In this document: positions 1,627 through 35,200 of the stretch, piece after piece | Numbering within the stretch: position 1 is the stretch's first letter | Layout: each line of letters opens with the position of its first letter | NCBI GenBank assembly: GCA_035235625.1 | Contig: CP141143.1 | Coordinates: 12,631,092-12,695,091, forward strand | Reading direction: 5' to 3' | Source: Saururus chinensis | Lineage: Eukaryota > Streptophyta > Magnoliopsida > Piperales > Saururaceae | Length of the DNA stretch: 64,000 nucleotides | Notes under the pieces: model-generated | Databases searched by the model: none | The model's input: only the letters and a program-made list of their open reading frames with translations | What the model was told of the DNA's origin: nothing | Position numbers and translations under genes: made by a program

Positions 1627-2190
1627 ACCTCTTTCTAATACTATAGTTGTCAGTTGCACACTTTCAGTTAACCCTTCTTACCACCATTTTAATCAATAGA
1701 TATTGCCTTCTTGACTTTGTAGTAAGTCCAATAATTTGCTTCATTTCTTTCACCTTAACTTGCCTCACACCCCCATTAGTGCATCCACAAAGAAAAAATA
1801 TATGTACCTAAAAATTACCTCTTTGTAGCACTACCAATTGTTAGTTATACACGTTCAGTTAAACCTTCTAACCTCCTTTTTCCAACAAATATATTGTCCT
1901 TCATGACTTTGATAGTAGCCCAATAATTTGCTTTATTTCTTTCATCTAAGCATACTTCACACCCCAACATATAATTGTATCCACAAAGAAAAATACATGT
2001 CTCGGGTAATTACCTCTTTTGAACCCTAGCAGTTGTTAGTTATACAATTTCAATTAACTCTTCCAATTTTTCATTTTTTTCACTAGAGATGTTGGCCTTA
2101 TTGACATTGATAGCACACCCAATATTGTGCTTCATTTCTTTTGTCTAAATATGCTTCACACCCCCACTATATTTGTGCCTCCACAAGGGA
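1627..2190. repeat. Tandem repeat, three diverged copies of about 190 bp
   Basis: Three successive segments start with ACCTCTTT at about 1627, 1817 and 2012. Each then runs through the same landmarks: a GTTAGTTATAC-like stretch, a CTTGACTTTG-like stretch, a TTTGCTTCATTTCTTTC-like stretch, a TCACACCCC stretch and a CCACAAAGAAAAA-like end. The copies differ at many positions, so the array is not recent. No coding content is seen. A three-copy local array fits duplication by unequal exchange better than a centromere-type satellite. Confidence 0.7.
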
Positions 2191-5016
2191 AAATAAACAA
2201 TCCTCCTTATCCTACCTCACCATTGTTCTGGCCACCCTTCATTGCACGACAACCCATGCCTTGTCTTCAAGAGATAGGGCACCATTCTTGAGGCTCTTAG
2301 ACATCCACCATTTGCCAACTTAGCAACCCATATTCGTCTTCCTCTTCAAACGTTCTTGTTGAACTCATCAAGGTTCTTAACTTTGAGGGGAGAGTAAGCC
2401 AGAGGAGGGGTGAGAGATGAGCATATGAGGGAGGAGGAGACAAGGGATGAAACTTATCCAGGAGAGGAATCCCATGGGCGGCATCTGTGGCTAGAGAGTA
2501 CACTCGAGGAGGAAAACCATCAGGATAGACTCATTTCGAACGAAAATTTTCACCTTTATAACATTGGAGGGGCATTTTTGGCATTTCTTATGTGTGTGGC
2601 TCAGATGAACCTGCCCATGCCTATTTTTACAAAATCCGATTTCCTTGCTTATTTTTGTATCTCGGCCAAAAGTCAAGCCTATTTTTGGAAAAATTTCGGC
2701 AGGATAGGCCTACCCCCATCCCACATCATTGTAGCACTTGATGCTTATAAATGATACTATTCTTGCTTACTTTCTTGAACATAAGAGCCCTCATTATTTT
2801 TCACATATTATCCCAATTTAAATAAATTTACATCTTTTTCTCCAACTTCAACGATGAAAGTGACAACTTTGGCGGCCCTACCTCCACCCTCTCTCTTTTT
2901 TCTTCTTCTTCCTCCTTCTTTGCAGCCGGCGGTGTAGCAAAAAAAGGGCGGCTATAGCCGATCCTTCCAAGAAAGCTACAACTTTTGTTGTGACCACCAT
3001 TCTTTTAGCCCGTGTCATCGAGTATGGAGGAGGAGGAGGAAGGGAATAAAAAATAAGGAGGAAGGCAGAACCTAGGGAAGTTGAGGCCAGGTTGGTGGCA
3101 TTGTGACGTGGGGTGGGTCTAGAGTATGTACCCCTATGCCAATGCCAAAACTAGAAGAAAAGGGATGGAAAGGTAGATTATGGTCGAGTAGGGAAGAAGA
3201 AAATGCATATGTTGTGGGGGAAATATGAGAAAATTTAAAACTTATTTATGGGGTAAATAAGAAATGGGATACTAAGGGGATTATTGGGGTACATATAGAC
3301 ATGTTAAAAAAATGGAAAGGATATGTGTTTTCTCACCACATCTTTTTTATCACCCCAACCCACACTGCAAATCCTCTACATTTTCTCTGTTTTTTTTTAG
3401 AAAATTTTAATTTAGACCCAACGGTGACCCCTATTACCCAATGGATCGTGACATATAAGATTGTACCACCTAATATAGTCACACTTCTTTTCTTGAATGA
3501 CATGTTATTTCTAAAAAAATCTTACAATACCCCATTTTATCTCTCTTCTTCTTCCTTATAATCACCATCTCCACCACCGTGCTACCACCTTTCTGCCACC
3601 ACCATCGTTCTATCACCACTGCTAAGTTACGACGAGTGGTGCACAATATAAATTTACTATAGTCTATATAATAAATTTACAATGTAGTAAATCTTGGCTA
3701 ACAATTTCTCTTGCCTCTACCACCAGTACAATCATACTAAGAAAGGAATATAATAAATATATATTATAAATAACATAATATAATTTTACTGTGTGGTTCA
3801 CCACCTCCTTCAGCCACCTATGGTGGCCAAACCTATCCTCCTATTGGTTGTGGCGGTAGCAACAATGATCAAATTTAGCCCCTAGTTGGCTGCGGCTATG
3901 GCTGCATTACCATGGTCACTGGTGGTCGTTGTTGGCTATGGCATCCATCGCACCATGACCTCAAGCCCACAGCTAGATCTTCTGTTTGCAGCCATAGTTG
4001 GTGGTGGCCAAAAGGTGGGTAGGTAGAAAACCTAACATGGGGGTCGAGCGGGAAAGTGTCACAAAGGTGGTAGAATGTTCATTGAAGGGGCGGATCTGGC
4101 CAGCTACCCATGGCTTATGGAAACAGACTCTTAGCCAAGCACCAGATGGGCAATGACAAGGGAGGTAATTGAGTTTGCAATAAATGGATAATTTGTTGAA
4201 ATTTTAAGTAAGGTTAGGACCCTTTTTGTCAAAAAATAAACCCTAAACAGTTGGTAGGTCATTAAACACGGCATTAAATGCTTATTGGGTCTTATTTGTT
4301 GGAAATGGGGCTTATTGGGAAGATCCCCCTTTTTTCTCTTGCCTCTTGCAGTGTTCTGAATTAACAATCATCTTCTTTCGTGGCTTCAATGACAAGCCGG
4401 GGATCACAAATTTCATCGTTCAGTTGTTGAGTTTAGATTAGGGCAGAGACATGCATGTGTCGACAACGGGAAGTGAAGAAAAATAGGTTTCACTAATAAA
4501 GAGTGTAAAGAATAAAATTTTCAACTCTTTGGGGTGAGGTAATAAGTGGGGTAGGCTCAAATCATAACAAAAGAGGGATCACAATTCGTACCCTAAAATA
4601 AAATAATTAGATGTGGGATTACGCTTTCCTCTTTTGAAGTTGCCAGGAGCCGTTTTCTCTTCTCACCATATATCTATTTCCCTCTTCTCCTTTTCAATAG
4701 TGTGTTTTCTTTACTCCTTGCGCGTCATAGGATAATTCATGTATTTTTTGGAGGAAAGCTTGAATAGGTCTGCAAAAGAATCTGTTACAGTTCAGTTAAA
4801 GCTCTTAAGTCCTAATTATCTTCTTAACCAATCTAAAATTAGTTAATTTTTTTACTGTTTTATTAACCAATATAAGTTTAATTATTTATATCTGCTCCTT
4901 TAATTGATAAATTATATTATGTAATAGAGAATATTAATATTTAATTAACCATCTTATCTAAACGAAGAGAATACTAAGAATCTAAACAAACTATTCTTTT
5001 ATAAATATTAATAATC
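2191..5016. other. Intergenic DNA without recognised genes
   Basis: Several short open frames occur (for example 2410-2754 plus and 3301-3561 plus) but none has a recognisable domain or codon pattern. CCACCA and GGTGG-rich stretches occur around 3560-4020, and A+T-rich stretches around 4800-5016. Nothing here supports a gene call. Confidence 0.45.
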
Positions 5017-5753
5017 TAAGGCCCTATTAGGGGTTGTAGAAAAACAAGTCGGAAAATAAGTTTTCCTAGAAAATAACTTTGTACCTTGTTAGGGGTTTTA
5101 GAAAATTTTAAAATAAAAAATTTTATTTTTCCGACCCCAGGAAAAGGGTGGAAATGTGGGATTTATTTCCCGACCCCCCAACCCTTTGGAAACCATTTTT
5201 TCGAGCATCGGGTTTCTTCTCCGCTTTGCCTCTCGTCCTCTCTTGCTTCTCGGTTTCAGCTGCCTTCGGCCCTCAGGGCTCCATCCTGATCTTCTTTGAC
5301 TCCGACGTAGGCTAAGGAGCTTATTCCCGGCTCCAGTCATCTTTGCGCTTCAAGCCCCCTACACCCACACTTCCACCGGAACGAACCATTCTCCTCAGCT
5401 TTTTGCCCGTTTCCAGCCGTCTTCTCAAGCCGTTCATCAATCTTGCGGCCACTGCCTCAGATACTTCAGAGGTCTGTTATCGTTTCCTTTTATTCTCACG
5501 ATCTCAATGGGTTGCCCCATTTTTTGTCTTCGACTCTGACGTAGGCTAGGAGCTGGAGTTGAGACTGTTATTGCTTAGGGCCCGTTTGGTTTTGCTTAGA
5601 ACTGTTAGATTTTATTTAGATGTTGCCTTATTAGTATTACTTATTACGCCAAAACGAGCTCTGTGTGATGTCTACTGTATTTTAGTGTTATTAACCATGA
5701 AGTTCTACTTTTGTTAGTTCTATGGTTCACTGAAGGTTCCTTACCTTTTTCAG

Positions 5754-5927
5754 ATAAAATTCCATATGTTGATTATGGGGATTGTGTGGTATTTAACAAT
5801 GAGAAGGGTGGAGTTATAGAAAGTCTTAAAGAAGATGGCGTTATTGATTTAGATTCAAAAATTGCAACCCACTCTTTCCGAGATTGGATTTCCGGTGGTC
5901 AGTTCCTGGCTTGTCCGAAGTCCAAGG
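5754..5927 (+). pseudogene. Exon-like open segment, unknown protein fragment
   Basis: An open frame is preceded by a polypyrimidine tract and AG (CTTTTTCAG) and followed by a GTATCT donor. It encodes about 58 residues beginning IPYVDYGDCVVF and ending FLACPKSK. The mixed residue composition looks like real protein rather than chance A+T-rich translation. I do not recognise the family. Upstream, 5200-5475 is a G+C-richer, T/C-rich leader-like stretch ending in a possible donor near 5470. It is probably an exon of a host gene carried inside the transposon-like unit, or an exon of a chimeric transcript with the BRCA1 piece downstream. No start codon can be assigned. Confidence 0.35.
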
Positions 5928-6102
5928 TATCTTCTGTAAAAAAAAATTCCCCGTCTTTGTGTTTTCGTAGAAGCATCTTCATGTATTTCTAAAATTTCAA
6001 CTGTGTTATTAGAACAATTGATGCAAATGTTGTTTACATGCAAATGTTGCAGCAATTTTCTGAAGGCAGAATGGGAGTTCGTAATAATATTAAATAGATT
6101 CA

Positions 6103-6154
6103 GATTGTTTGATAGAATACAACTGCCTGTGAAATTGTATTCTATCAAACAATC
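6103..6154. repeat. Perfect 20-bp inverted repeat with 12-nt loop
   Basis: The left arm at 6103-6122 (GATTGTTTGATAGAATACAA) is the exact reverse complement of 6135-6154, with a 12-base spacer. The stem would fold as a short hairpin in either strand. It lies in intron-like DNA of the BRCA1-carrying element. It may be the remnant of a very small transposon or a local inverted duplication. Confidence 0.8.
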
Positions 6155-6240
6155 CCACACCAGATAGTTTAATTTCAATCTCATGCCGGTATTGGTAAAA
6201 ACTATATAAGGTTGTTTAAAGTTAGTTTATCTTAGCCCTG

Positions 6241-6860
6241 AAGACAGAGGATTTCTTATCCAGTTGTATCCTAAAGCAGAAATTTCAGTTAAATGAATTA
6301 GTGGAACAAGCTAAGTAAATAAACCTTACAATCATAAAACAACAAGTTGCAGCAAATGCTATAGGGATGGCCACAGAGGTGATTTTGTCAAATGGTCCCT
6401 TCAAATAAGTGTGCTTAGACATGTTCTGGAAATATTTTTGCCTTTGAAGAAGCTTCTCTCTAGGGTAGAAAGGTGGTTCCGCCTCTGTCATCCTGCATCA
6501 AAAGAAAAAATTCAATTCATGTGTTTAAAAATTTCAGTCCTCTTATTTGATAACGTCCCCTTTTGCAGCATCGAGTTATCTATTGTTGAAGACAAAGCAA
6601 TAATCAAAACAAAGTCAAATAATACTACTACACTTAACCAAGAAAGGTTGATCTGTAAATTAAAATTAAGACATAACTATGACAATAACATAAAATAGAG
6701 TGCGAGTGCTAGCATCATATGGCACTTAACGTGTGATAAGCATGAAGGCAATAAGAATAGATAATATGCATCGTATGGGATAGTGTTGCCCGGTGCCATG
6801 ACCCATGAGCTATATCCAGAGGATTAATAAGACAGAGGATTTCTTATCCAGTTGTATCCT
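6241..6860. repeat. Pair of identical 32-bp direct repeats 588 bp apart
   Basis: Positions 6241-6272 and 6829-6860 are identical over 32 bases (core GACAGAGGATTTCTTATCCA). No coding sequence is recognised between them; open frames there are short. A local duplication or a repeat-flanked insertion would both explain this. At 32 bp the repeats are too long for a standard transposon target duplication. Confidence 0.75.
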
Positions 6861-8524
6861 CTAATAGTACTTGATACTTAGCGGTGATTAATTCACTAAT
6901 TGTATTATCTTATTTCTCCTTAAATGCAAGTTAGACTTCTTCTTTTTACTAAATTATACCTTCATTGAGTGCCTTTAAGAGTACCTTTTCTTGCATTAGA
7001 TAGTTTGCTAAATTTATGTCAGAGATACATGTGTATCGTCATCACCACATTCCAGTTACAGAGTTTAAGTATTATGTCACATTATATTTTAAGTATTCCA
7101 GGCTGTCCATGTTGCATGCACAAGGCTATGCATTGTAAGTAAAAATCATGAATGCCTTCCATGTTCGCTGCACTTGATATTCCTCAAGGCCTGTATACCT
7201 TATTAGCATTACAGTGCAGGACTTTTTCTAAGTGAATTAATGATCTTGCCTTATCGGTCCATATGCAAAACTCATTCATTCATTAGCGTAAGATGGGGTT
7301 GAATAAATTTGTGAGGCATGTATTTCCATGGTCACAGAATGAAGAAAATTGAATTGATTATGCCGTAGACGAAATAGCATAAATTTTTAAAACTGTAAGC
7401 TTGATAAGAGTATAAATTTTGTATTCCAAATTTTTTTGTGTTTTTTCATTAATATGGGCCAAAAGGATTATTAATAGGTAAAGTTAGCCACTGAAGCTCC
7501 AGTCGTCAGATCATGGTATATATGAGAAAGCTGTGGCTCTGGGCCTCTGGCTATACAAGCTAATAATATGCAAGTTGAATATATAATAATAGTTGATGGC
7601 CTTCTATACTGAATTTATGATGTACCTATATTCAACTGAAAAAGAACTTGGCCTGCATTTGTCCAAGATGAACTCCATTACTATATTATATAATTGGTTT
7701 TGGTTTCTACTTAGAATTAGAAGCAGCACTAGACATTTATTGTCGGATTGGGATGCCTTGTGTTTTTGCAATGCCGAAATGTGTTAAGTTGAAATTTGAA
7801 AATAAAGATGGATTTAAGATGATGTAGAAGTTTCTTAGTTTCAGAATATAGAGCAGACGAGAGATTCATAGGGATCAGAACAGAGGTAAATCAAGGGCAT
7901 TAAGGTTGAATAGATGAGAACTATAAAACAAAAAATCAAGTAAGAGGAAAAGGATCAAGAGATAAGAAGAATAAACAGCTAAACTCAGAGCTTCTAAGGC
8001 TTCCAGTGTCTTGGTGGAGAGTTTTGCCTTCTTGGAGTTGATTGCCCATTATTGGCTACTACTAGTTGTTCAAAACTGGAAAAAACTACCAACTGAGGAG
8101 TCTGTCTTTTAGTCTTGGGGTTTTACATAAGGTAATTGCTTCTAAAATTGTCCATCAAAGTAACTTTGAGGAGCCAGGTTATTACATTTTAATAAAAAAA
8201 ATTCATACTCCAGCTTCTCAGCTTAGCACTTTGTTTTTCCTAGGGAAGTGGTCAATTGTGCTTGTAGCTGGAGTGGTGATTGAGCTCGGGCTGGCTTAAC
8301 TGCAGTGAATTTAGTCTGTTTACAGTTTGCCTTTATCCCAGCTATATTTGGCATTCATAATTTCCATAGTTTATAGGTTTGAACCTGTATCACATGACTG
8401 TTTTCTTAAAGCATTTACTAGGGTGCGATTCTTGAGCCATGAGTTATTCAGGAGAATGAGCCGGAATGCAGAACATCTTTCAAATGTAAAATGTGATTTA
8501 TTTCTTGGTTCTTTTCTTATGCAG

Positions 8525-8860
8525 GCACCTAAGCTATTCAGTGGGATAAATTTCTTTTTCAGTGGCCAATTTGAGTCCTCCTACAGAGGATACCTTGAGG
8601 AGCTTATAGCTGTTGCTGGGGGAATTATTCTATCTAACAGGGAGGAAATTTGTCCAACTGAATCAGTTTATGCAATTATCATCATCATTTATAGCCTTGA
8701 ACCCCCGGAGACATGCCAACAGGAAGAGATACCTTCTATCATAGAGAACAGGCTTGCAGAAGCAGAAGCTCTAGCTGCTGGAACCAGTGCTCGGGTTGCA
8801 GGTCATACTTGGCTTCTGGACTCAATAACTGCTTGCAAGCTATTACCAGTGATCTCCTGA
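8525..8860 (+). pseudogene. BRCA1: BRCA1 C-terminal exon (second BRCT repeat), detached fragment
   Basis: A splice acceptor (TTATGCAG, ending 8524) opens a frame of 111 codons that ends at a TGA. The product begins APKLFSGINFFFSGQF and contains YRGYLEELIAVAGG, EAEALAAGTSARVAGHTWLL and ends CKLLPVIS. This matches, from memory, the second BRCT repeat and carboxyl end of plant BRCA1, where the family has KLFEGLKFYF, GHTWVLESI and LHPVIG at the same places. BRCT repeats of BRCA1 bind phosphoserine peptides in DNA repair. The RING finger, extended PHD finger and first BRCT repeat are not found anywhere in the window, so this is not a whole gene. The fragment has no internal stop, so it is young, used as an exon of something else, or simply short. 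It lies inside the TAA-flanked element, suggesting capture. Confidence 0.75.
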
Positions 8861-9463
8861 GGAGCAGAGAAATTCCAACCTTTCCTATGTTGTAAGTTTA
8901 AGTTGGTTAATTTATTCTTTCCGTACGAAGTTGGGTGAAAGTAGATGACCTACTGTTGTATTTGGCTGTTTATGTATCATTTGGATATTTATGAGGCCAT
9001 CATTTTCATGGTTAACGATGCTTACGGTGTATGAATTAATAAGCCATTGTAGTCTTCGACTTTCTTCCGAGTCTTCTTTTTAGGATGCTCAATTTGTGGG
9101 AATGCGCTGTTAGGTCTTCGATTCATTTGTTTCGAACTGCACATGACTGGCGGAGAGTGGTCCTCAATTCTCTGTGGAATTTGGAAGTTGGACTCGTGGA
9201 AATTTGAGTTTCCTATCAAATACTATCAGTGGGAACATAATCAAGAAAGAGGCCAAAAGTGGGTGGACTGTAGTGGCCAGCGGATATAATAACTCATTTC
9301 ATCCACTGTTAGGGGATTTTGATCACTGTTTGACCATATAACTGGTGCAGTAAGGCCATTTATTTCATCTAGCTTATATTTAATTCTAAAAGTTTTGCTT
9401 TACATTTCTCTTGATGCAGTCCATTGAAAATATTTGCTACAGTAAGGCCAGATGTGTATGTAA

Positions 9464-9565
9464 GTTAAAAGCGGTGCATTTATAGTTTGGTTTTTAGTCA
9501 AATTTTGGCCAAATGTTAAAAGCGGTGCATTTATAGTTTGGTTTTTAGTCAAATTTTGGCCAGAT
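9464..9565. repeat. Near-identical 51-bp tandem duplication
   Basis: A 51-bp segment starting GTTAAAAGCGGTGC at 9464 is repeated directly from 9515 with almost no difference. The near identity indicates a recent slippage or unequal-exchange event. It lies between the BRCA1 exon and the next exon-like frame of the transposon-like unit. Confidence 0.85.
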
Positions 9566-9759
9566 GTGTGTGTAAGTTCAATTTTGCTCAAGGATGTAAG
9601 GATGGATATCATGTTATCACATATTGCCTTAAATCTACTGTGGCAGCAAAGAAAGATTAGCTTGTTTTGAGTGTGGCTTCTGGGAACTTACTCCACCATA
9701 TTTATTTTCTCTAACCTATTACTAATGTTGGGTTGTTGTTGTGTATCTTTCTTTTGCAG

Positions 9760-9941
9760 AAAAACATGGGAAAGTTGTGTGCCCAGTTGTTCGAGATGAG
9801 AATGGAAGCATTGGAGATGCTTATGATCCAAGACACATAATCCGTATTTGTGCCACAAGCTGCTCAACCTTACAACAGTTTTTAAAGAAATGCTACACTA
9901 AAACAAGAAAAAATAGAAAGAGACTCAACAAAGTTAAATAG
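9760..9941 (+). pseudogene. Exon-like open segment, unknown protein fragment
   Basis: A classic acceptor (TTTCTTTTGCAG, ending 9759) opens a frame of about 60 codons with a TAG stop at 9939-9941. The product contains HGKVVCPVVRDENGSIGDAY, DPRHIIRICATSCSTLQQF and a basic tail rich in K and R. The first part looks like genuine conserved protein; the basic tail is A-rich and may be non-homologous read-on. I do not recognise the family. It is not part of known plant BRCA1 as far as I can recall, so the element may carry pieces of more than one gene. Confidence 0.35.
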
Positions 9942-10149
9942 GGATATGTCACATGCAAAGCACGCACATGGACATGCCAGAATGCCTCTACATTTTACCT
10001 ATCACAGTTGCAACATATTGAAGAACATATTGATATATACCTGCTTCAAAGGGGATTTTAAATTGTAATTGAGATACGATTGTATTGATATAATAAGAAA
10101 TTATAAATGTAATTTTTGTTTCTATTTAGCGTACCATTTTTTTATTTTT

Positions 10150-10510
10150 CGTTCATTAACGATGCTCGCATGAGCGTCCCTAATGGTTCCTATATTAGCG
10201 ACGCTCATATGCGTCGCTAATAATCCAATTAGCGACGCTCCTTTAGCATCGCTATTATTTACTTTTACATTCATTGAATAGTGACGCTTTGTAAGCGTCT
10301 CTAATAATCATATTAGCGACACTTATAAAACGTCGCTAATAGTTGATGCTTTATTCTTAAATAGTGACGCTTGCAAAGTGTCACTAATATAATTATTAGC
10401 GACACTTTGTATGAGTGTCGCTAATGTATATCTTTAATCAAAATGTCGCTAATAATTATTATTAGCGACACAAATAAAATAGCTACTAGTTTTTATTATT
10501 AGTGATAAAA
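10150..10510. repeat. Array of about eight short palindromes with TTAGCGACGC arms
   Basis: From about 10155 to 10510 the sequence is a run of imperfect inverted repeats. Each has an arm like ATTAGCGACGCT, a short A+T-rich loop and an arm like AGCGTCGCTAAT, recurring every 40-47 bp (centres near 10168, 10207, 10242, 10291, 10327, 10374, 10411). Such palindromic TTAGCGACG repeats are known from the subterminal regions of plant CACTA (En/Spm) transposons, where transposase binds. A possible decayed CACTA end (TTTTTTTATCTAGTA) lies near 10611-10625. No partner end or transposase is clear, so this may be one end of a CACTA element caught in the larger unit. Confidence 0.65.
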
Positions 10511-10797
10511 TTAAAACCGTTGCTAATACTTTAAAAAAAGGATAAATAAAAGGGTTACTTCATTAAAAAAATATGTAAAAGGACATAAATATGGTATTCT
10601 CTATTAACAGAGTTTTTTTATCTAGTAATTTTTTTAAAATATATATTAAAAATTTTCCTGAAAATTTTTTTAAATAAACCCCTAACCATGGAAATATCAA
10701 TTTCTATGACAATTTATTTTCATAAAAATATAATTTTCCTAAGAAATTGCTTTTCCTAGAAATTTTTTTTTTTTCCAAAACCCCTAACAGGCCCTAA

Positions 10798-11959
10798 ACA
10801 AAATAGGTAGCCTCATCATATGTCCCCGGTTCTGATCCAACAACTCTCACTTGTAGTAGAAAGCCGGAAAATGCTCTACCTACAGGTTGTAATCCACGGG
10901 ATAGCCCACGGGCTGTTAATCTAACCACTTGTGATCGTGTTTGGAAAAAAAGGCACCAGAGATTAATGATAGTAGGGGTTCATCTCATGGATGAACGATG
11001 ATTTTCTTATACCAGAATTTGTTCAATAAAACTTTACAACCGCTATTGATTGAACATAGAAAAATAGACCTCCTATTGTCGTATAAGACCTACTTTTCTT
11101 CGTTAGCTGACACCTTGGATGAATAACATACGTGTAATAGCATTATTTTAGAAATGAAAGGGCCGGATGCTCTACCTTGGATGGCTCACATGCACACAAT
11201 TGGAGAAACGCTAACTGGACTCTGCTATAGAATTCAATATACAAAATGAAATCAGCAAAATTTTGCATCTTCTTACAAGCCCCAATTATCTAATAGGCAT
11301 AAAATATTAAGATCTAAATAAATCCTTCGTATACTCTTGTACGTTGAACAATTTAATTAAACAATTAATTTGTCAACAACAGCTCTTCCATAACCATTTC
11401 ACTCTCTTGAAGCAATTTTTTACCCCAATCTCCAGCTGGTTAACAACAAATCGTCCATAATATAACGAAATGCCTCAGGTAGGGAAGTTAATTGGTTACC
11501 GATTTACACCCTTTAACTTTCTATTCAATTTGCATTAATTACCTACAGACATGTCCTCCTAGGGGTGCGAGTTTCAACAATCCCATTGGCATTGGTAGGA
11601 GTTGGCAGAATTAATAAGAGGATTAGTCAAAATGATCATTTGATTCACTTGAGCAAAGTGACGACCACAGGGTTTTGAATCACATTAGCATTAGAATGAG
11701 GAAGATTCGGATCCCTATGTCATCTATGTTTCCGCTGAGTAATTTTTGACAAGGAGGATACTTCAATATCTCATTCTTTCCCTAAACCTTTCTCTTATAC
11801 AATGATGGAAGTACTTCTACATTGTAGATAATTAATAGAAGCATGTCAAGCGGCTACAAAAGAAATTTACTCACAATTGATTGAATACAAAACTGTGTGG
11901 ATTATGATGTCAGTAAATACTAAATAAGTAGAAAAAATTTCAGTACCTCTACTGAACCC
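10798..11959. other. Intergenic DNA downstream of the helicase gene
   Basis: No gene is recognised. It should contain the 3' untranslated region of the minus-strand helicase gene next to 11960. The rest is A+T-rich with no repeat structure that I can see. Confidence 0.45.
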
Positions 11960-19149: not shown

Positions 19150-19464
19150 TTCCAATGACCTCAAATGTCCCCGCTTTTTAATTTTCGCCGGATTTCGGCG
19201 GTGTTTCCCGGCCAAGTGCGGCCTGGCTCGGAGCGTCGGGGTTTAGGGTTCTTCTTTACCAATAAATAACATCGCGAAATACGCTACCGTATTCATCTGG
19301 ACCGGACCGGACTAGATTGGAATGTAATATATATAAGAAAATCGGCTCCTATTTTGAGCCGGAAATATGAACCGGTCGAAGGCGAGTCGGAATTCAAGCC
19401 CAGCCGCCGTCGCCATCGGAATTAAAGCTCGAGTGAGTGTGAGTTGGGGGGAGAGGGGGAGGAG
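19150..19464. promoter_or_regulatory. Shared upstream region of two head-to-head genes
   Basis: Only 315 bp separate the start codons of the RH16-like gene (minus) and the KH gene (plus), so both promoters and both 5' leaders must fit here. A TATA-like stretch TATATATAA at 19328-19336 faces the KH gene about 130 bp before its ATG. On the helicase side, the minus strand carries AACCCTAA (19243-19250), the core of the telo box found in promoters of plant ribosome-biogenesis and translation genes. A bidirectional promoter is inferred; transcription starts are not visible. Confidence 0.6.
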
Positions 19465-22400
19465 ATGGATCCCTCCTCCTTGAAGCGGTCGCTGGATCAG
19501 CCGTCGGATGCCCACCACCGCCACGAGTCCAACGGCCCGGCGTCCTCGAGCTCGAAGCGCCGGCCCCACCCTTCTATGATCAGGCCCCCTCCGCCGCCCC
19601 TCAAGCTCTCCCCGGGCGAGATCCTCTTCCGGGTACTCTGTCCCGCCGACAAGACCGGCGCCGTCATCGGAAAGGGCGGCTCCATCATCCGCCAGTTCCG
19701 CCAGTCCACCGGCGCCAAAATCCGCATCGACGACGCAGTCCATGCCTCTGACGAGCGTGTCATCCTCATTGTCGCCGAAGCCGCCGCTGCCTCGGGCAAA
19801 AGGACCAGGGATCACCCGCTGGAGCCTGAAGGGGAGGCCAACGCCAGGTCGGGTGCCAAAAAGGAGGACGAATTAGAGAATGCGGTGGCGTTGGAGGACG
19901 AAGATTTGGTTTTGGCGTCGCCGGCGCAGCAGGCGCTGGTGAAAGTGTTTGAGAGGTTAGTGAAGGCGGATGAGGAGAGGATGATGGGGGGAAGTGCTGC
20001 GGATGGCGAGGAAGTCGGTGACGAGAAGGCGGGGTCAGCTGCCAATGTAGGTCTGGGTTCAGCGCAGGGATTGGTGGTTTGTCGACTTTTGGTTCCTAGC
20101 AATCAGGTCGGTTGTGTGCTCGGGAAAGGTGGGAAGATTGTGGAGAGAATAAGGCAAGAGACGGGGGCACAAATTCGAATTCTCGACAAAGAGCAGCTGC
20201 CCATTTGTGCTGCCGCTGGGGACGAATTAATTCAGGTAGGAGGATCCTCCACTTTAGCGAGGTTCATTAATAACATTTCTAGATTATTCTCAAGTTCTTA
20301 ACCAACGTTTAATTCACATATACGAGAGCTTCCTTCTTTAAGCGTCTGTCACGAGACTATAATGAAGAAAGATTGAGCTTACATATTATGTGTCGTCGGT
20401 GGTTTATTGTGTAAAAAAGGAGGATATTTTAGACCAATTAACATATATATATCGATTATAGGCAAGCTAACAAACGGAGGGGCAAGGAAAATAATATCTA
20501 ATCGCCAAATGATAAGATTGAGTATAAGGTTGGGAGGAGGAGGAGGAGAAAAGAAAGAGCATTTCTATGAGGAAACTTACTCTAGAGAGATCAAACTCTA
20601 GGTTCGGAACTGTATCCCCTTTCTATGTAGACTACATGATTTTTGAAACTTTGTGGAACTAGCTCAAGTGTACCTGTATTTTGTAAAAGCTCTCAAAGCT
20701 GATATATTGCAGCTGTTTTGTTATTTCACTGTGATTAAAATGCATCACCCTGATTGAAATAAAACTTGTTTTCTCTGATTCTCTGACTGGTATTACTAAA
20801 TTTTTTACCTTAAGTGTATGTGGGTGGAAAGTGCTAATTTTTTGTTGAGTTGAGGGCATCGCCTTATGAGATATAGAATATACTGGGACTTTCTAGTAGG
20901 ATGACTGTTAGGACATTGTATTGGACTACAACCTGAGGTGAGAAAATACGACGCGTAAAATGAAGTGTTGGATGATACTTTTTTTTTCTGAAAATGACTA
21001 AATTATAGGACATTATGTAACTACAAAATTTTCCTGTTCATAACCACCTGGGTATGGTTAATTTTGAAATTACTGGCACGCAAATGAAACCAAATTGTAG
21101 GAAAGTAGTGTGATAATTTGTTCAATAAGAAAAAAGGGAAAAAGCTTGAGTAAGGAAAGATATGAGAACATAGCTACAAAGCCATGCCTTTGCCAAAAGG
21201 ATATTCTACTTAATTATAGTTTGCAAAACCGACTTCACATTCTTTGATTTGTGAGAGAGAGAGAGAGTGTGTACGTGTGTGCATGCGTATGTGTGAGTAG
21301 AGCAACCAAAGAGTTACTTGAATTAGGATAAATCTGTTTTCTTATTTGTGATGGTTGAGAATGACCTTGACCTCACGAGTTCAATCAGGATTATGACCAG
21401 CAGGTCGAGTACTGCCGCAATTCTGGATTCCATGGAGCAACTCTGGTGTTTGGGCATGTCAGATGACAAGTGGAACAATTGTAAGGATTTTCAGTTGCAA
21501 TGGTGACTGCATCTCCAAGTCAGGATTTTTGCAATACGTAGCATGTTTTATCCTAACATATTCACAAAAATAGTATTTTTTCCCTTCAGATATTGACAAT
21601 AATTTACTCATTCTTTTTGTGCAGTCTCAGACCTGTATAGGAACTTGATTAGCAGGTTTGCAATGACAGATTTAGACAGTAAGCTGCTTTAATACGTGCT
21701 ATATCTCTCAATTTTTCTTGTATTGAGAGAAAAAATAATAAACCCCACCCCTCACTATGAGGTTTGCAAGTGTGACCTGGCAGAGCTTGTATTTTTTATA
21801 AGGCACCAATAAGCAAAATTTTTGTTAACCTAATAATCACGGTACTATATGGTGAAATTTTAATCACTATACTGGTCTACGTTCCTGATTTGAGTACATC
21901 TTTTTAGATAAAATGTTTATCAGTTTCATATACAAATGTATCCCACTATTTTTGTACTATTTTCCTGTATCAATTTTCTATCCTGGTTTTCATATTTTTT
22001 TCAAATGTAATTACGGCTGGATAATTCTAGAAGATGGCTGAGGCAGCGCAATCGATAGAAAAAAAGATAAAAAGGAAGATGTTAAGACTGCAAGGGTTGT
22101 ATATGTATGGTTAATTTGTAAAGATCTTGGAGTATCTAAATTAATCTTGATTGGTTTGATATTTCTCCTTAAACAGCACTTTTGATGTGGATTACTAATT
22201 ACAGAATGTGCATACTAAGTATTATAGGGCTCATTTATATGTATTTATATTTGTATTTAAAGCACTGACTTATGACCATTTTTATATTAGAATATGAAGG
22301 TAGGCAGTCAATGCACTTAACTATTTTTAATTTTTTTTTTTCTTTATATGACCTTTGTAGCAGAACTTCATAGTAAGCATGCCGCCTTTATTGACATGCT

Positions 22401-32200: not shown

Positions 32201-35200
32201 GCCCAAACGCAAGAATTAAGTGTCGAGAGTAGTACTCGTGGGTAGCGAGGGGTCGACCCTATCGCGGGCTTGTTCATGTGCATGGGGTCCAGGCCTCTGC
32301 CGGCTCTGAGAGACAGAGTCCGCTCCCATTGTGATTGAACCTCTATTATAAACCGGAAGGAATTATGCAATCAAGCCCATTTAATCTCAGCCCATTTTTG
32401 GCCCGCCTAAATAAGAAAGGTAGGAGGATATTTAAAGAGAAAGAGAGGAGGTAGACCTAATGCACAAGTGCTAGCCGCCCCTCCCTCTCCTCCTCTCTCC
32501 CAATTTTTTGCCCCCTTCTCTCTTTGGTTGGTGCAGCCTGCACCTTGCTGCTGGCCGCCCTCCATCCTCCTCTCTCTTGATCAATTTTGGCGGGTTGTTC
32601 AAGGGAGAAACTCTCCTTCTCTGTTGAGACGTGGAGGCTGAAGAAGGGCTGAAGTAAAGGGGCGCCTTTGCTGAGAATTCCTTCACTCCAAGAGGTGGTT
32701 TAAGAGGGATTATCACATTAGAAAGGTAAACTCTAATCCCCTTCTCTAGATCTTGTGTTTGGCGTGCAAGATTTAATTTGTGAAGGACGTGCAAGGGCTG
32801 GATCGCCTAGGTCAATCTGTCATCTCTCCTGTATATTATGTTTCTCTTTGATTGATTGTTTGAGTTGCATGTTTATTGTTAATTGATGTTAGATATTTCA
32901 TGCGTTTGGTGTAGATTATTAAAGATTGGATTTTTATTGGTGCGTCATCCTCCTCCTACCACGCTTCCGTTGGTTCGGGTGAGCCAGTACGGGCTACAGG
33001 GTCCAAAGGTGGTGGGGGCAATCGCGCCAACCCCACATGTGCCCTCGTTACACATAATTCGAATGGGACCTGCATATGTCATACACGTACACTAGACATA
33101 CATTTAGGTGTGCATTTACACATTGTGGGGCCAGACGCACGAATTAGATGTCGAGGGTGGGACCTGTGGTTAGCGAGGGTCAACCCTATCGCGGGCTTAG
33201 CCGTGTGCAGGGGGTCCAGGCCTCCACGGGCTCTATGGGTACAGAGCCCGCTCCCGTTGTGTTAGACCCTCTAGTGAAACCGGAAGGATGTAATCAGCTT
33301 GACCCATTTGAATCAGCCCACTTACTAAAGCCCATAAAAAATAGCCAAATAATGACCCGCATTTATATTGAAGGTAAGGGGAGTAATTAAGGGAGAGAAT
33401 AAGAAAGAATATTCTCTCTTATTGTATATGATGGTTCCCCCCCCCCCCCCCCCTCGCCCCCCCCCATCTTTTGTAGATCTTGGATTTTCAATTGGCTTCT
33501 CCTCTCTTCCAATCCAAGCCAGCTCCCTTCTCTCCCTTGGTGCAGCATGCTCTTTCATTGGGAGAAGTTGTTGGCTGCCCCTCCTCTCCCCTCTCTAAGG
33601 TGCTCTAGGCGGGCTGAAAGGAAGGAGGACACTCCTCTCTATTGCTAGGTCGTTTTGGAGCTTGAGCGGGCTGATTCATTGCTGAGTTTCATCAATCCAA
33701 GTAAGGTGTTAAGGGATCTGCACATTAGAAAGGTAAACTCTAATCCCCTCCTCTAGATCTTATGTTTGGTGTGTAGGATATAATTTGTGGAGGACGTGTA
33801 AGGGCTGAATTACCCAGGTCAGTCTGCCATCTCTCTTATATATTATATTTCTCTTTAATTGATTGAATGAGATGATGTTTATTGCTAATTGATATTAGAT
33901 ATTGCATGCGTTTGGTGTAGATTGTTAATAATTGAATTTTTATTTGTGCGCCAACCCCCTCCCCACCCCCTCCTACCACACTTCCACTGATCCGGCCACT
34001 CTACACTCTGCCTAGTGCCAACTTATTTACAGTTTGTAATATTTAAGCCTGTACATTTTCATTTACACTTGTTACTCTTCTTCCTTGTATTCATTGGGAT
34101 TCAGACCTCCACCTGCAGTGTTACCATAATAGATCCGGCCTTTCAATTGATGCATTAGATGCGTCAACGATTAGCATTTATGTATTAAGTGGAGTTGAGG
34201 TATCTTTTGGCTGGTGTAAAGATGATTAATGTCAAAGGCCTGCCCCGCCCCTAGCGGTTTTTGGTTGGAAATGGCTAGCAAAGTTTCTAGCATAAAATGA
34301 TGCATCTAATGCTTTGTCACATATCTAACCAGTTCTAATTCATCCCTATTTCTGAGTACATACACTAAAAGATTTGTTTGTTCTTTGGGTCGTCTAATAG
34401 GAGATAATATATTTGGGTCGAGTACATCTGATGCTGCTGAGTCATTGATTGGTGCATTTGCTCCCGTCATAGCATCCAAACTTCCTTGGGCTGCAGTTTT
34501 GGGCAACCATGACCAGGAATCTACCATGACTCGAGAAGAACTAATGTCTTTTCTTTCTCTTATGGATTATTCAATATCTCAGATAAATCCGCATGATGGG
34601 AACCTCGAGGGCTACGTCAAAGTTGCTGATATAGATGGATTTGGAAATTATAATGTGAAAGTACATGGTGCCTCAGGTTCAAAAATGGCTAATAACAGCG
34701 TCCTAAATTTCTACTTTCTTGACAGTGGAGATAGAACGACTATAGATGGTATTCGAAGTTATGGGTGGATCAAGGAGTCTCAACTTCGTTGGCTCCGCAT
34801 TGTATCTAAAGGATTTCAGGTACACTTATTTTTTTTAAATATTCTTTGCCTACTGCAAAAACCATATTTTCCTACTTTCAATGTGTGTCTTGATGTCTTC
34901 CAACGTTGGCGTAGATCCTTGGGCTATTTCGTCAATGCAAGGTACCAAGAAGACTAAATATTGAGACATACAATGAAGGAGCTCTAACTGCATTTATGCT
35001 TGTGTTATTCAGGATGCACGTGCACCAGCACTGACATTCTTTCATATCCCAATTCCAGAGGTTCGGCAACTCTGGTACAAGCCAATTGTGGGTATATTTC
35101 AGGAGGCAGTCGCTTGCCCTTCTTATAACTCGGGTGTTCTTCCAACCCTCGTCTCCATGGGGGATGTGAAGGGTGTGTTTCTAGGCCACGATCATTTGAA

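Follow-up and report, generated by a model that had tools for sequence, protein, structure and literature searches.

A 64,000-nucleotide stretch of Saururus chinensis DNA (the window; C4:12631092-12695091 of a searched host genome of 516,460,831 bases in 11 contigs) contains, at positions 5020-10794, what is very probably a non-autonomous plant DNA transposon, a Pack-type PIF/Harbinger element, loaded with pieces of host genes. The transposon unit is a further Pack-PIF, PIF elements with captured gene pieces being already known, and it has a richer cargo than first noted and informative intermediates. The route by which plant DNA transposons gain gene pieces is still under debate, with fusion of neighbouring insertions and template-switching repair as the contending models. 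In this case the capture steps can be read base by base because a single genome holds loaded and unloaded elements for two of the pieces, donor-type genes and templated junctions.

At the left limit of the unit TAA (5017-5019) is followed by GGCCCTATTAGGGGTTGTAG, and at the right limit CCCCTAACAGGCCC is followed by TAA again (10795-10797); when one end is reverse-complemented 23 of the 29 terminal bases agree. The matching inverted ends with TAA on both sides that the initial annotation had described are thus present where it placed them. These ends are not a product of chance, because the end region recurs in the host genome: the left 316 bases (5015-5330), whole or in part, were found at at least 40 places, which is a lower bound from a search that gave 41 rows and in which 40 of 155 candidates were scored. 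The terminus GGGCCTGTTAGGGG adjoins TTA in L050, L054, L055, L057 and L065, while a near form adjoins TAA in L062; L050, L054, L057, L062 and L065 each have TTA or TAA at the one end that is readable. A copy on C1, L051, has complete ends, is 3568 bp long and carries matching 3-base flanks.

Consistent with the earlier claim that the unit lacks a transposase, none lies within it among the 150 DDE_Tnp_4 (PF13359) matches scored, of 408 candidates, in the host genome. Four pieces of the transposase and second frame of L055 likewise gave no match to the unit (best E 0.41), and the control, L057, was matched. Seven DDE_Tnp_4 matches are located 2-8 kb downstream of left-end matches and on the same strand. 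L055 (C11) is a 6775-bp element with perfect 14-base ends (GGGCCTGTTAGGGG at both) and TTA on both sides, so the ends recur also on a transposase-bearing element; it has in common with the window 5016-5966 (92.9%) and 10536-10808 (86.3%). Its DDE_Tnp_4 frame, which includes one stop, scored 62.1 bits in the genome profile search, with E 7.3e-7 for the first piece, and its second frame contains an At2g29880_C domain (E 2.5e-8), which we take to correspond to PIF ORF1. L057 (C4:14.44 Mb) shares 5013-5914 with the window (93.5%) and also contains 3.4 kb of the L055 coding part. Transposase made by such related elements would act on the terminal inverted repeats of the unit, with TAA or TTA being duplicated on insertion. 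On the minus strand of L055, 2425-2661 holds a frame that resembles a host protein, presumably UBA-like; it had no match in Pfam and is possibly a further captured piece. At the other left-end loci open frames were listed for 22 of the 30 loci L012-L041 (L012-L019 were left out; the 40 longest frames, with no family search made). In that frame listing L038 2577-2987, close to another left-end copy, has a pattern that we take to be a RING-type zinc finger.

The exon that had been reported as the C-terminal exon of BRCA1 is real, in that 8525-8860 matches Pfam BRCT_2 (E=1e-6; score 29.4 bits, cut-off 27.3 bits); the gene it comes from may be either BRCA1 or its paralogue BARD1. The piece to which the exon belongs, 7588-9320, matches L053 3461-5196 on C6 at 94.9%. 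L053 contains frames for a PHD-like zinc finger (zf-HC5HC2H, 7.2e-11), a BRCT domain (2e-5) and, in the last exon, BRCT_2 (1.6e-7), and is therefore regarded as a donor-type host gene. Last-intron sequence, the whole last exon and the downstream flank were all copied, and copying was therefore from DNA; the initial annotation had asked whether intron sequence came along, and it did, together with the exon and from a gene on another contig. A retrocopy origin of this cargo is ruled out by the copied intron sequence. A PHD-like zinc finger with tandem BRCT domains is present in both plant paralogues, BRCA1 and BARD1. The sixth protein match (42%), at C7:14.897 Mb, is a paralogous gene with similar frames, and comparison with solved structures places the first BRCT of both this gene and the donor nearer to BRCA1 and the second nearer to BARD1 chains. 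No RING exon of the donor was found in the 18 kb upstream, searched with a RING query and, over the nearer 9 kb, with a pattern, and NCBIfam gave no match for the five pieces searched. Upstream of the donor, L066 6158-7601 (C6:34.6827-34.6841 Mb) comprises diverged pieces (76-86%) of a second copy of the last-intron region of the donor gene.

Beyond L053, donor sequence is found at at least seven places, namely the window, C7:13.65, C1:58.01, C7:4.01, C4:30.98, C9:36.82 and C2:31.43 Mb, a lower bound as 40 of 2284 candidates were scored. The last exon is kept in four of the seven cargo places, those at C4:30.98 Mb and on C9 are cargo remnants only, and the C2 element (L056) contains donor 2135-4300, which lies upstream of the window's piece and overlaps it. 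The copies were compared with the donor in two parts, 7588-8424 and 8525-9320, with 8425-8524 left out. In these parts 26 and 24 columns, respectively, distinguish the donor from all copies present, and 16 and 17 columns vary among the copies. The shared differences from the donor favour one capture, and on this ground separate captures by the C2 element and by the lineage of the window copy were rejected. The data fit a single capture of at least donor 2135-5196, which would later have been trimmed differently. Near-identical repair-gene exons in annotations can, as this case shows, be transposon cargo.

The 'unrelated exon-like frames' noted earlier are present, but their sources, a metaxin-type piece, a minus-strand COX7a-type exon and a CACTA piece, had been missed. 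Window 5555-5913 matches L060 at 94.0% by BLAST (345 of 359 ungapped columns). L060 has GST_N_4 (1.8e-10) and weak Tom37 (0.0092) domains, and from these and the sequence we take gene and piece to be metaxin; the window piece alone matches GST_N_4 in Pfam at 0.0017, below the cut-off. Window 6265-6816 matches L061 on C5 at 99.3% by BLAST, 542 of 544 ungapped columns agreeing over 6273-6816, and a minus-strand COX7a domain has E=2.8e-10 in both. Genome matches overlapping ~9600-10055 include at least 11 places apart from the seven with cargo. Among these is L059, which continues to TTGTTATAGTG with TTAGCGACGC-type subterminal repeats; from features of the CACTA family we take L059 and window ~9607-10535 to be CACTA.

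In some elements the sites of captured pieces are unloaded. The COX7a site is unloaded in all three loci read (L062, L063 and L064), where the stretch that occurs twice around the window piece is single, and the match coordinates of two further places on C2 fit the same state. The two flanking copies agree at 32 of 32 positions, against a best of 21/32 in 60 shuffles, and at the right junction the filler starts with CAGAGGATT, which is present in the acceptor. The metaxin site is unloaded in the one locus read, L062. Here window 5527-5554 matches 27 of the 28 bases of L062 459-486, the counterpart of window 5293-5320, and enters the donor at GGAG. At the 5' junction of L056 TTGTCTC is common to element and donor, and the element stretch TAGGTTTGTCTC occurs twice. 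Across 11 loci scanned, junction strings were found in six for metaxin right, three for COX7a left, two for COX7a right, two for BRCA1-type left and four for BRCA1-type right. Such short templated duplications and microhomology are expected of template-switching repair. They are less expected of joint mobilization, which should leave paired internal ends, and no paired internal inverted ends were recognized at the junctions read.

These data suggest a history in which breaks inside the element would have been repaired by copying unrelated loci with template switching, the unloaded sites representing the earlier state. The metaxin-type piece would most likely have been inserted first, then the BRCA1/BARD1-type and then the COX7a-type piece; a CACTA transposon piece would have been added too. 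The loaded element would have multiplied by later transposition, its copies being trimmed differently by internal deletions. The metaxin-type piece is placed first because it occurs also in L055 and L057, the transposase-bearing elements, and because the copies vary most there, and the COX7a-type piece last because its donor still agrees at 542/544 columns. This order is inferred because donor divergence alone is insufficient and donor rates may differ: the donors diverge from the copies by 2.2-4.5% (metaxin) and 3-4% (BRCA1/BARD1-type), which by itself would not put metaxin first.

Several observations weigh against the reading of the unit as a Pack-PIF loaded in this way. For the BRCA1/BARD1-type piece no locus in the unloaded state was found, and it looks as though the 5' part of the window element was joined to that piece at 7588 by later recombination. 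Both transposase frames examined, those of L055 and L057, contain stops. The window left end is two bases off the family form GGGCCTGTTAGGGG, L051 is flanked by ATA/ATA, neither TAA nor TTA, L052 has no clear target-site duplication, and no element terminus was recognized in L056 (C2). An empty site did not emerge: for each of three insertions (window copy, L051, L055) the two flanks, once joined, match only themselves in the host genome, in a search that skips common words. Within the window, 5527-5554 matches the 507 bases upstream at 21/28 ungapped, where shuffles gave up to 19/28; this match is only 21/28 because an indel separates 5527-5554 from the upstream stretch.

It could be argued that host DNA was gained when two neighbouring PIF insertions were mobilized jointly, by local hopping and fusion, and not by template-switching repair. 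Such a model has been proposed for Pack-TYPE elements including the maize Pack-PIFs (PMC8903248, in its available part). In the donor, CTGTTAGGGGATTTT (L053 5182-5196) resembles a PIF end at 13 of 15 bases and falls precisely where the captured piece stops on the right. This match is weak evidence because an equally good 13/15 match occurs at L053 391, and CTGTTAGGGGATTTT may reflect either chance or a trace of the capture. Against joint mobilization, the donor-type genes of the three pieces are unrelated and lie on C4, C5 and C6, in BLAST comparisons with the element or the window L053, L060 and L061 matched in the captured pieces only, and the junctions bear the templated duplications described above in place of internal inverted ends. 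We therefore consider joint mobilization unlikely and retain template-switching repair as the probable route of capture. Two other explanations can be given still less weight. With at least five sources, the element is a mosaic such as an assembly artefact joining unrelated pieces might produce, but its junction strings are found again at other loci, which speaks against assembly error, and L050 and L052 have four extra bases beside the COX7a left junction; an artefact is thus very improbable. If a BRCA1-type gene had decayed in place, next to unrelated repeats, the open exon and its good acceptor would be accounted for. Such local decay is excluded because a donor-type gene with zinc-finger, BRCT and last BRCT exons is located on C6 and because near-identical pieces occur at seven places, spread over five contigs and for the most part sharing these element ends. 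Gene capture, the reading originally preferred to decay, is upheld by that donor-type gene and by cargo in six further elements (C1, C7 two, C4, C9 and C2).

A more ambitious proposal is that this PIF/Harbinger family is a serial exon shuffler, acting through template-switching repair, that has multiplied an in-frame pair (58 metaxin-type and 111 BRCT residues). The pair would be transcribed and spliced into a chimeric BRCT protein, or would give rise to small RNAs acting on host genes, including the BRCA1/BARD1-type repair gene. Indeed the putative 5' splice site after the metaxin piece (AAG|GTATCT) and the BRCT acceptor (TATGCAG|GCACCT) are kept, with open frames in phase, in all four elements that contain both exons, and the BRCT exon is open in 4/4 copies and in the donor. 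The four copies of the BRCT exon, however, differ by eight amino-acid-changing and no silent substitutions, where 24% of possible changes are silent; at that share the chance of 0/8 silent is ~0.11. The metaxin-type exon piece shows eight changing and three silent differences among seven elements (L057, with an incomplete match, was dropped). The BRCT differences give no sign of selection or constraint as judged from the sequence, and no start exon was identified. Use of the cargo thus appears improbable.

Table 1. Features of the transposon unit and its flanks, in window coordinates.
Feature	Position	Strand	Remarks
Left target-site duplication TAA	5017..5019	.	Same bases as 10795-10797
Left terminal inverted repeat, begins GGCCCTATTAGGGG; family form GGGCCTGTTAGGGG	5020..5048	+	End region at at least 40 genome places
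PIF 5' subterminal region, common to transposase-bearing L055 and L057	5020..5554	+	5527-5554 resembles 5293-5320 and runs into metaxin piece; 20/22 bases, repeat family D11
Captured metaxin-type gene piece: intron and first part of exon 2	5555..5913	+	L060, on the minus strand at C4:12.347 Mb, is the donor-type gene
Exon-like frame: metaxin exon 2 piece and element sequence to putative 5' splice site AAG|GTATCT	5754..5926	+	
PIF internal sequence	5914..6272	+	5914-5966 common to L055; 5914-6136 and 6146-6272 common to L062
Left copy of 32-base acceptor duplication flanking COX7a piece	6241..6272	+	Single copy in L062, L063, L064
Captured COX7a-type gene piece	6273..6816	-	Coding frame 6288-6497, minus strand; donor-type gene L061 (C5:47.469 Mb)
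12-base filler CAGAGGATTAAT	6817..6828	+	First 9 bases match acceptor sequence exactly
Right copy of 32-base acceptor duplication	6829..6860	+	32/32
PIF-lineage internal sequence	6861..7587	+	~7256-7587 matched only in other copies of this element family
3' part captured from a BRCA1/BARD1-type gene, comprising part of the last intron, the last exon and downstream flank	7588..9320	+	L053, at C6:34.689-34.691 Mb, is the donor-type gene
Last exon, second BRCT domain	8525..8860	+	Acceptor TATGCAG|GCACCT kept; stop 8858-8860
PIF-lineage 3' sequence	9329..9606	+	Common to L056 and, from 9348, L058
CACTA-type transposon piece	~9607..10535	+	Exon-like frame 9762-9938; TTAGCGACGC subterminal repeats
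PIF 3' subterminal region and right terminal inverted repeat	10536..10794	+	Common to L055 (86%)
Right target-site duplication TAA	10795..10797	.	Read from sequence

In L050 2463-6719 (C7:13.650-13.655 Mb) the interior of the element, corresponding to window ~5469 to the right terminus at 10794, is inverted in place, and one breakpoint is the exact right end of the element, as aberrant transposition might leave. Window 7256-7587 matches only other copies of this element family. Going by long open frames at 19426-20301 and 34310-34957, which from their sequence we take to be KH-domain and purple acid phosphatase-like host genes, the element is located in a gene-bearing region.

The unit can be compared with Pifvine-3 of grapevine, the 2008 paper on which is reportedly by Benjak et al., and with Turmoil-1 of Caenorhabditis elegans, which from term counts we take to be of the Harbinger class. 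Capture is indeed less often described for the PIF/Harbinger superfamily, as the initial annotation held, and this is a fair statement so long as two earlier reports are kept in view: PIF elements with copied host sequence were described in grapevine in 2008 (PMC2528002), and a 2022 survey covered the Pack-PIFs of rice and maize and put forward a fusion model (PMC8903248), both as represented in the parts available. A single paper was found under the name Pack-PIF or Pack-Harbinger. The available text of a 2026 review of gene capture does not name PIF transposons (PMC13317346). Among the best-ranked literature matches none is on BRCA1 cargo in a plant transposon; of BRCA1, transposon, captured and Pack-MULE, the best match held three. 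In its available part the account of Turmoil-1 describes, as in the window unit, an element with two captured coding sequences; in contrast to the unit, these are in its inverted repeats and the host is an animal (PMC2572040).

Gap filling and FoSTeST were proposed in 2021 for animal Pack-TIRs and, in the available portion of that report, resemble the present case in breakpoint microhomology, in the unloaded element as the earlier state and in later multiplication by transposition (PMC8277862). They differ in having been shown for animals; the authors regard an application to plant Pack-MULEs as worth exploring, and the main text of that report does not contain the word Harbinger. The Zm-Pack-PIF clusters of maize, as given in the accessible text, are similar to the window unit in being non-autonomous PIF elements with gene pieces added stepwise, unloaded relatives and mostly TTA/TAA duplications (PMC8903248). 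The maize examples in that text average 402-535 bp, with pieces of 163 and 58 bp, and are ascribed to fusion of neighbouring insertions, whereas the window unit is 5.8 kb long, its pieces measure 0.36-1.7 kb and its junctions are indicative of template switching. Similarly, Pifvine-3, in the part of the report available, has long 5' regions of copied host exons and introns, several copies and 3-base target duplications (PMC2528002). There the 5' cargo is described for a family possessing transposase and ORF1, while the window unit is without transposase. Unlike Pifvine-3 as described in that part, the window unit combines three named gene types with a CACTA piece, and its unloaded sites are present in the same genome.

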